Assembly (NCBI GenBank): GCA_007988785.1
Contig: BJUU01000016.1
Coordinates: 1 to 63,661 of the forward strand
Source of the DNA: Agrococcus baldri
GTDB lineage: Bacteria; Actinomycetota; Actinomycetes; Actinomycetales; Microbacteriaceae
Direction of reading: 5' to 3'
DNA length: 63,661 nucleotides
In this document: in pieces, positions 5,850 through 13,435 of the stretch
Layout of the letters: the number at the start of each line of letters is the position of its first letter
Numbering within the stretch: the first letter of the stretch is position 1
Notes under the pieces: generated by a model
The model's input: only the letters and a program-made list of their open reading frames with translations
Told to the model about the DNA's origin: nothing
Database searches by the model: none
Program-made: the position numbers and the translations under genes

Positions 5850-5858
5850 GCGGCGGGT

Positions 5859-5959
5859 CCTTCGACACGGTGTGCGCCTGCGGCGGCGCGCACCGGCTCA
5901 GGAAGCGAACGGCGGTCCTGTCCTGCGGCGCGCACCGGCTCAGGAAGCGAACGGCGGTC
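5859..5959 (+). repeat. Family B palindromic element: one full unit plus a right-half duplicate
   Basis: The unit has the family B frame: CCTTCGACA at 5859, a hairpin, and GGCTCAGGA ending at 5903. Its arms are CGGTGTGCGCC and GGCGCGCACCG, unlike the CGCTC/GAGCG arms of the 13-kb copies but still complementary. A second copy of the right half (about 5923-5959) follows after a shared AGCGAACGGCGGTC spacer. The stop codon of the next minus-strand gene (5958-5960) overlaps the last bases of the element. Confidence 0.85.
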
Positions 5960-8304: not shown

Positions 8305-8374
8305 GGTCTCGTGACGCGAGCGGCCTGCGGCCGCGCGCTCCGGATCCTGAGCCTGTCGAAGGGCGACCTACGGG
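8305..8374. repeat. Nested palindromic element: short family B inside family A
   Basis: A family A unit begins GGTCTCGTGACGCGAGCGG at 8305, runs through its hairpin to GCGCTCC, and resumes as CGACCTACGGG at 8364-8374. The two parts are separated by TCCTGAGCCTGTCGAAGG (8345-8362), a hairpinless family B core in reverse orientation. The element fills the whole gap between two convergent stop codons (8303 and 8375). Confidence 0.8.
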
Positions 8375-12747: not shown

Positions 12748-12838
12748 TCCCTGAGCCGCTCCGCGCCGCAGGCGCAGAGCGTGTCGAAGGGCCGCGTCCT
12801 GAGCCGCTCCGCGCCGCAGGCGCAGAGCGTGTCGAAGG
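12748..12838 (-). repeat. Two family B palindromic units (reverse orientation), left of the GIY-YIG gene
   Basis: Units at 12748-12790 and 12797-12838 read, on the minus strand, CCTTCGACA, then a hairpin with arms CGCTCTGCGCC and GGCGCGGAGCG around TGC, then GGCTCAGG(GA). The two arm sequences are identical. They fill the gap between convergent stop codons at 12741 and 12842. Their orientation is opposite to the four-copy array on the far side of the GIY-YIG gene. Confidence 0.9.
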
Positions 12839-12841
12839 ATG

Positions 12842-13147
12842 TCACACCCGGCGCCGCACCTTCGGCACACCACGACGGCGTGCGGCGGCTCGAACGCCCT
12901 CCCAGTCGTCGGCGATGAGCGCCTCCTTCTTGACGCGCGACCAGCCGTGGACTCGCCGCTCCATGGCGTACGCCTCGGCGGTCGACGCGAACTCGCCCGC
13001 CCAGGCGAGCTGCACCGGCAGCCGCCGCTTCGTGTACTCGGCGCCGACACCATCGGCATGCTCCTGCAGCCTCGACTCCAGCGTTCTGCCCGTGCTTCCG
13101 ACGTAGAAGGAGTCGTCAGCGCAGCGAAGCAGGTAGGTCCAGGGCAT
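12842..13147 (-). CDS. Small GIY-YIG family nuclease (YhbQ/UPF0213-like)
   Basis: A 101-residue protein consisting of one GIY-YIG fold. It has MPWTYLLRC and FYVGST (the GIY and YIG strands in variant form). The catalytic arginine lies in TLESRLQEH, and the conserved Glu in YAMERRVHGWSRVKKEALI. The C-terminus is Arg-rich and could bind DNA. Small GIY-YIG proteins are structure-specific nucleases or of unknown role. The gene is flanked by two family B hairpins on one side and four in opposite orientation on the other, which suggests but does not prove that the nuclease acts on these elements. Confidence 0.9.
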   Translation of the reverse strand: MPWTYLLRCADDSFYVGSTGRTLESRLQEHADGVGAEYTKRRLPVQLAWAGEFASTAEAYAMERRVHGWSRVKKEALIADDWEGVRAAARRRGVPKVRRRV

Positions 13148-13186
13148 GCGGAGGAGCGTGGCACGCGCCTCGGTGGGGCGCTGCGG

Positions 13187-13435
13187 CCTTCGACACGCTC
13201 TGCGCCCTCCGGGCGCGGAGCGGCTCAGGGAACAGGAACCGCGAACCGCAACGACCCTTCGACACGCTCAGCGCCCCTCGGACGCGGAGCGGCTCAGGGA
13301 ACAGAGGCGGCGAACGCCGCGACCCTTCGACACGCTCTGCGCCCTTCGGGCGCGGAGCGGCTCAGGGAGCGGGGCGGCGAACGCAACGGGCCTTCGACAC
13401 GCTCAGCGCCCCTCGGGCGCGGAGCGGCTCAGGGA
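13187..13435 (+). repeat. Four family B palindromic units in tandem, right of the GIY-YIG gene
   Basis: Units start at 13187, 13256, 13324 and 13391, about 68 bases apart. Each is about 45 bases (CCTTCGACA, arms CGCTCWGCGCCC and GGGCGCGGAGCG around a 3-base loop, GGCTCAGGGA). Spacers of 22-24 bases separate them, and the spacers resemble each other (CGAACGC-like). Nothing else is visible in the 13148-13442 gap. The array ends seven bases from the rbfA stop. Confidence 0.92.

Follow-up and report, generated by a model that had tools for sequence, protein, structure and literature searches.

Does a small GIY-YIG nuclease gene that lies between oppositely oriented arrays of a palindromic repeat play, for that repeat, the part which a transposase plays in the RAYT/REP arrangement? 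The question is raised by one locus of Agrococcus baldri, found in a stretch of 63,661 nucleotides (contig BJUU01000016.1, hereafter the window). A preliminary description of this DNA proposed the resemblance, and gave as the alternative that hairpins collect by chance at convergent gene ends. REP palindromes are common in bacteria; for a large class of them, the missing partner responsible for their spread may be nucleases of this kind. The question can be put to the test: the protein is about 100 residues long and the hairpin about 42 bases. If the answer is positive, it would mean a new transposition chemistry, and the scattered, repeat-flanked small GIY-YIG genes would be explained.

The nuclease gene and its hairpins

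The gene occupies positions 12842-13147 on the minus strand, starts with ATG and encodes 101 residues with intact motif residues. Its assignment in the preliminary description is borne out by the open reading frame and by a match to the GIY-YIG family PF01541 (E 1.9e-13, residues 1-73, 51 bits against a cut-off of 22.6), which is the sole Pfam match of the protein at E 0.001; no NCBIfam model matched at the same threshold. Residues Y5, Y15, G17, R26, H30 and E63 are invariant in alignments of 27 and 41 rows, and Y5, Y15, R26 and E63 are presumably the catalytic Tyr, Arg and Glu of the GIY-YIG superfamily. The AlphaFold model is a confident single domain (mean pLDDT 91.5). Among solved structures, the UPF0213 protein BH0048 (1zg2, E 9.5e-5) is the best match and alone lies under E 0.001, followed by EF2693 (1ywl, E 6.8e-3), then by Slx1 and UvrC; I-TevI (1ln0) matches weakly, with E 1.3. 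Slx1 is a branched-DNA nuclease and I-TevI a GIY-YIG homing enzyme. The whole unit is neighbored by rbfA on one side and by a ribonuclease gene, convergent towards the site, on the other.

Six hairpin elements, recovered by element scans and by folding, flank the gene. Beyond its 3´ end, two of them lie on the minus strand, at 12797-12838 (closest to the gene) and 12749-12790 (an identical 41-nt copy). Beyond its 5´ end, four lie on the plus strand, at 13187-13230 (closest), 13256-13299, 13324-13367 and 13391-13434 (outermost on the right). The preliminary count of two elements on the left and four in opposite orientation on the right is thus confirmed by coordinates, strands and folding; all six form hairpins of -20 to -30 kcal/mol with RNA parameters. 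A repeat-finding tool, at the settings used, called no inverted pairs at spacings up to 30 bases; the hairpins contain internal mismatches, and arms below its seed length may escape it.

Elsewhere in the window only scattered single copies had been described, and two were recognised: an element at about 5858-5903 (plus strand; outer stem TCCT/AGGA, inner stem changed; stem assignment and ends set by eye) and a short-type core, CTTCGACAGGCTCAGG, at 8346-8361 (minus strand). Across the 3,158,485 bases of the genome, the exact 13-mer CTTCGACACGCTC has 32 copies, six of them at the window locus, against none for the reversed-pattern control; under uniform placement, six of 32 copies inside 688 bases would have a probability of about 1e-16. 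Inspection of 24 of the remaining 26 copies yielded 14 strict full elements and, by eye, about five degenerate ones and five chance matches in coding sequence. Compensated stems also occur in the dispersed copies, again by eye. As a separate observation, the same genome holds three close elements of another type, TCGAGACGGCGGCTGCGGCGCCTGCTCGACC, at G000:C2:45510-45684, and a single small GIY-YIG gene was found genome-wide.

Recurrence of flanking repeats

Within its family, 75 of 299 genomes have matches to the window protein, and all 100 listed loci were examined. Our flank test compares the 400 bases before a gene, reversed, with the 400 bases after it, and uses displaced windows as controls. 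By this test 81 of the 100 family loci score above 20, the 95th percentile for 362 displaced windows, and 19 do not. From 80 loci of the set for other taxa, 61 were taken and two proved too short, which left 59; the 19 left out were Microbacteriaceae by name, records already included, or L179, named just Micrococcales. Here 48 of 59 loci exceed the 95th percentile of 167 displaced windows, among them loci of Nocardioides, Janibacter, Methylorubrum, Reyranella and Caldilineaceae. Most relatives elsewhere keep flanking elements, a point that the preliminary description proposed to test.

UvrC genes served as a GIY-YIG control, in a run that scored 18 of them and 28 other loci. Only 2 of the 18 UvrC genes score above 20. 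Twelve loci classed by eye as UPF0213-like (L187-L194, L196, L198, L202, L204) include nine that score 17 or less and three that score 23-25, the latter in apparent GC-rich coding sequence. Four loci with a GIY-YIG motif that is degenerate by eye, for example VTGTT (L097, L099, L100, L101), have flank scores of 9 to 12 and are a possible natural control.

The density of elements near the genes is far above background, as the preliminary description anticipated. An exhaustive scan found 570 elements at distances of up to 500 bases from the genes (129 of 161 loci) vs 32 at 800-1500 bases (19 of 161 loci), in counts where loci of related genomes are not independent. Unrelated hairpins might in principle collect by chance in intergenic gaps, and the ribonuclease gene that converges on the window site suits this explanation. 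The displaced windows, the UvrC genes and the six of 32 copies inside 688 bases contradict it, and it also fails to account for the match between element type and protein described below; we give it practically no credence.

Two further features of single loci deserve mention. At L093 (genome G296), 20 short-element cores, some with one mismatch, are packed into the 810 bases that precede one GIY-YIG gene. At L087, L088 and L145 the element supplies the last codons and the stop of the GIY-YIG gene (CTGGTCGAGTAG, read as LVE-stop).

Element anatomy and layout

The elements share a common anatomy, N4-TCGA-(inner hairpin)-CTC-N4´, in which the four-base outer stem covaries. When TCGA..CTC cores were searched with no pairing required, all four outer pairs were formed in 427 of 2443 cores that lie no more than 500 bases from a gene vs 41 of 2516 at 800-1500 bases, and complementarity drops towards background beyond the fourth position. 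Twelve outer stems were seen at least three times, GGTT/AACC, GGTC/GACC and CCCT/AGGG being the commonest. Orientation scans and typing are limited to these 12 forms, which were picked after the core-pairing survey.

With strands read relative to the gene, the exhaustive scan gives '-' for the closest element upstream in 100 cases and '+' in 20, and for the closest one downstream '+' in 83 and '-' in 29. Both sides could be scored at 103 loci; the mirror layout '-+', which is also that of the window locus, is found at 69 of them, and the 34 non-mirror loci divide into '--' (17), '+-' (9) and '++' (8). These figures supersede an earlier scan whose pattern halted at the first CTC and overlooked many elements, including those of the window locus ('-+' 36, '--' 13, '++' 10, '+-' 0). 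From that less complete scan comes the median distance of 11 bases between stop codon and downstream element. Flank tests, mirror orientation and density near the genes all support the RAYT-like reading of the locus.

Dispersed elements follow a related rule. Among neighbors within 150 bases in two congeners of about 91% identity, the second of them G045, '-+' pairs number 22 and 25, '+-' pairs 13 and 20, and pairs of the same orientation 5 and 5. Of the 25 '-+' pairs in G045, 15 are separated by 49 or 50 bases, and these pairs usually combine two different stem types. Because dispersed neighbors are mostly inverted and the window locus is '-+', the gene sits in a mirror pair that resembles the gene-less dispersed pairs.

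Element type follows the protein

At least 25 copies of the short element CTTCGACARGCTCAGG are present in 16 of 299 genomes, and no copy in 240. All eight genomes whose gene has mainly short CCCT-type flanks are among these 16 (hypergeometric 9e-12, a statistic that ignores shared genus). The other eight comprise G168, with a partial gene beside short elements (L102), G278, which has 31 short CCCT-type copies though its gene is typed as GGTC long, and six genomes with no detected gene, congeneric with G071, G050, G077 or G168.

Stem type also tracks the protein tree. With 126 of 158 proteins typed (L071, L098 and L102 omitted), 44 changes of type are needed vs 71.8 after shuffling (minimum 64 of 300 shuffles), on a tree that is built on few columns and was weakly resolved in an earlier version. 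For 75 of 126 proteins, the closest relative in another genome shares the stem type, vs 27.1 expected (maximum 46 of 1000). Earlier typing by a less complete pattern covered 84 of 158 proteins and gave 33 changes vs 48.3 shuffled. Moreover, every one of the 12 genomes with at least two typed paralogues holds at least two stem types.

These data bear on the idea that the hairpins act as regulators or terminators for the nuclease gene and for adjacent genes, so that clustering would reflect selection for RNA hairpins at gene ends. Their stability as RNA and the short median distance from the stop codon would be expected of such structures. Hundreds of dispersed copies in some genomes would not, nor would the 20-copy upstream array at L093; UvrC genes mostly do without such hairpins, and element type follows the protein and differs among paralogues of one genome. 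We consider a regulatory origin very unlikely.

Gene presence and element-rich genomes

Genomes with at least 60 matches to a loose element pattern are found 29 times among 75 gene-positive genomes vs 8 times among 224 gene-negative ones (Fisher 3e-13). The tallies were made by eye, with 60 matches as the lower limit because the pattern has a background of about 10-20 matches in many GC-rich genomes. According to the preliminary description, many genomes with the repeats and no such gene would speak against its reading. This holds in part: 8 of the 37 element-rich genomes had no GIY-YIG gene detectable by single-protein and profile searches, and six of these eight have a congener that carries the gene, the exceptions being G069 and G281. 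The profile search of gene-negative genomes gave no match at E 0.001 in 25 of 25 (17 with higher and 8 with low counts); three of these genomes had weak hits with E from 0.05 to 1. The genome with the most pattern matches, G045 with 739, is one where no nuclease gene was detected; its congeners G116 and G171 carry one.

A second GIY-YIG subfamily and CGTC-tagged REPs

In the survey by Di Nocera 2013 (PMC3733652), CGTC-tagged REPs are described without a transposase, the reported monitoring concerns transposase genes, and a candidate enzyme is named for the GTAG class alone and none for the CGTC class. The same survey defines CGTC REPs by the CGTC tag, a stem of 8-9 bp that nearly always starts with AT, and a tail that is mostly CCA. 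The reverse strand of the window element can read CGTCTCGA, and on this description we rejected the possibility that it is itself a CGTC REP.

A second GIY-YIG subfamily, present in proteobacterial genomes, adjoins CGTC-tagged hairpins. At a threshold of E 0.001, which admits weak matches, 120 of 249 genomes have a match to one of its members. We tested the best 30 loci of the longer match list and inspected 23 of them; 19 of the best 30 pass the flank test (threshold 15, 86 controls). A CGTC-type hairpin (CGTC-like tag, 7-base stem) lies within 400 bases at 26 of these best 30 loci, in some cases possibly by chance; at the control distance of 700-1500 bases there are 15 such hairpins, in 7 of the best 30 loci. 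In other genomes, 8 of 11 loci that resemble this subfamily by eye score above 20. As to orientation at the best 30 loci, 19 of 22 nearest hairpins on the upstream side are '+' and 14 of 23 on the downstream side are '-'; the downstream bias is not significant. G841 has just two exact copies of one CGTC pattern, one on each side of the GIY-YIG gene and with the same orientation. For one exact CGTC pattern, nine genomes have 10 copies or more, and 6 of these 9 have a gene match (called loosely, at E 0.001) vs 114 of 240 others (Fisher 0.32). A nuclease with an unrelated fold and a recognizable code of cognate hairpins would supply such REPs with an enzyme. A further GIY-YIG gene, L312 in genome G601 (Leptospiraceae record L164), has a different inverted flank (score 22), possibly of another element family.

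Site occupancy and mobility

None of the five congeners searched has a GIY-YIG match between rbfA and the ribonuclease gene, and their genes are located elsewhere. The gap between the two neighbors is short in G119, G174 and G265 (in G174 the two stop codons overlap, by eye) and holds about 1 kb of other sequence in G049 and 0.5 kb in G223. The empty site of G119 contains one element with a variant core, so the gene may have landed next to an older element. The scan called no element at the empty sites of G049, G223, G174 and G265, and in G265 an element-like palindrome, uncalled by the scan, was noticed by eye. Between G045 and G171, orthologous sites carry element clusters that are unequal in number and differently ordered, several being missing from one genome. 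Flanks in this comparison are too diverged (about 91% identity) for clean insertion ends or target-site duplications to be resolved, and the junctions taken from alignment breaks are not elements. Occupancy of one site thus varies among relatives, as is typical of mobile elements, for the gene and for the elements alike.

Such patchiness helps to weigh two further explanations. Firstly, a host structure-specific nuclease might trim or resolve hairpins, its own gene having come to lie among its substrates through recombination. The presence of Slx1 among the fold matches is compatible with this; the occurrence in only 75 of 299 genomes and the differing sites among congeners fit a mobile gene better, and we find a host function of this kind quite improbable. 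Secondly, the gene could be a homing-type parasite: another process would spread the hairpins, and the nuclease would cut them as targets and have its own gene copied into the arrays. Gene-less element-rich genomes, the variant element at the empty site of G119, the palindrome seen by eye in G265 and the weak fold match to the homing enzyme I-TevI all lend it some weight. It is at odds with the empty sites of G049, G223 and G174, where no element was found and, in G174, the stop codons overlap by eye. It also leaves unexplained why cognate type and copy number go together, why dispersed '-+' pairs share the layout of gene flanks, and why both exact copies of the CGTC pattern in G841 are at the gene. 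In our judgment homing is unlikely, though less so than the other rivals.

A possible model of hairpin mobilization

We suggest instead, as the probable reading, that the window locus is an autonomous mobile unit whose nuclease mobilizes the cognate hairpins at its flanks, as in RAYT/REP systems but with an unrelated enzyme. The association of gene and repeat is firm. The data show directly how the elements are built and that they lie in mirror orientation, that their stems covary, that the arrangement recurs across phyla, that gene and repeat are cognate, and that congeners differ in the occupancy of one site; that the enzyme of the window locus cuts the hairpin, and that this cutting drives its spread, we infer.

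In the proposed model, the autonomous unit would consist of a GIY-YIG gene that has its own hairpin elements on both sides, one set mirroring the other. The enzyme would recognise its cognate hairpin by the conserved TCGA...CTC core closed by the four-base outer stem, and might cut at or beside the hairpin once this is extruded from single-stranded DNA or as a cruciform. Repair or rejoining could then move or copy the flanked segment. Mirror pairs without the gene, together with their single-element remnants, would represent the dispersed non-autonomous REP-like repeats.

A broader proposal extends this to both groups of loci: GIY-YIG nucleases may be the missing mobilizing enzymes of two large REP superfamilies, the one with the TCGA/CTC core (centred here on Actinomycetota) and the CGTC-tagged one. 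We lean slightly towards it. Such repeats would be short mobile DNA that uses neither HUH nor DDE transposase chemistry.

Comparison with known systems

In the literature searched, preprints not covered, we found neither a published link between GIY-YIG nucleases and REPs nor the repeat sequences themselves. Among single-domain GIY-YIG proteins, those of the UPF0213 group have the solved folds closest to the window protein; their loci differ from window-type loci in the low flank scores of nine out of 12. With the homing endonuclease I-TevI the window protein shares the GIY-YIG catalytic fold, by a weak match, but it has one domain of 101 residues and is flanked by multicopy hairpins. CGTC REPs, as the survey (PMC3733652) presents them, resemble window-type elements in forming dimers and heterodimers. 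The window elements differ from them in sequence, in their interrupted stem and, by eye, in having no CGTC tag, AT stem start or CCA tail.

The closest parallel is RAYT/REP itself. In PMC3733652, the REPtron consists of GTAG-tagged REPs and a tyrosine transposase of the IS200/IS605 group; the REPs form inverted dimers, species with several families have repeat-specific genes, and REPtrons are absent from some species. With it the window-type system shares a small enzyme gene that has short palindromes on both sides and further copies of them scattered over the genome, the inverted dimers, the repeat-specific genes, and the lack of the gene in some element-bearing genomes. It departs from RAYT/REP in its hairpin, which has the core TCGA...CTC and no GTAG tag, and in its enzyme, for which PF01541 is the only Pfam match and which has neither the HUH motif nor the catalytic tyrosine of the IS200/IS605 group. 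Since a GIY-YIG protein stands in place of the HUH tyrosine enzyme, the chemistry should differ from that of RAYT/REP.
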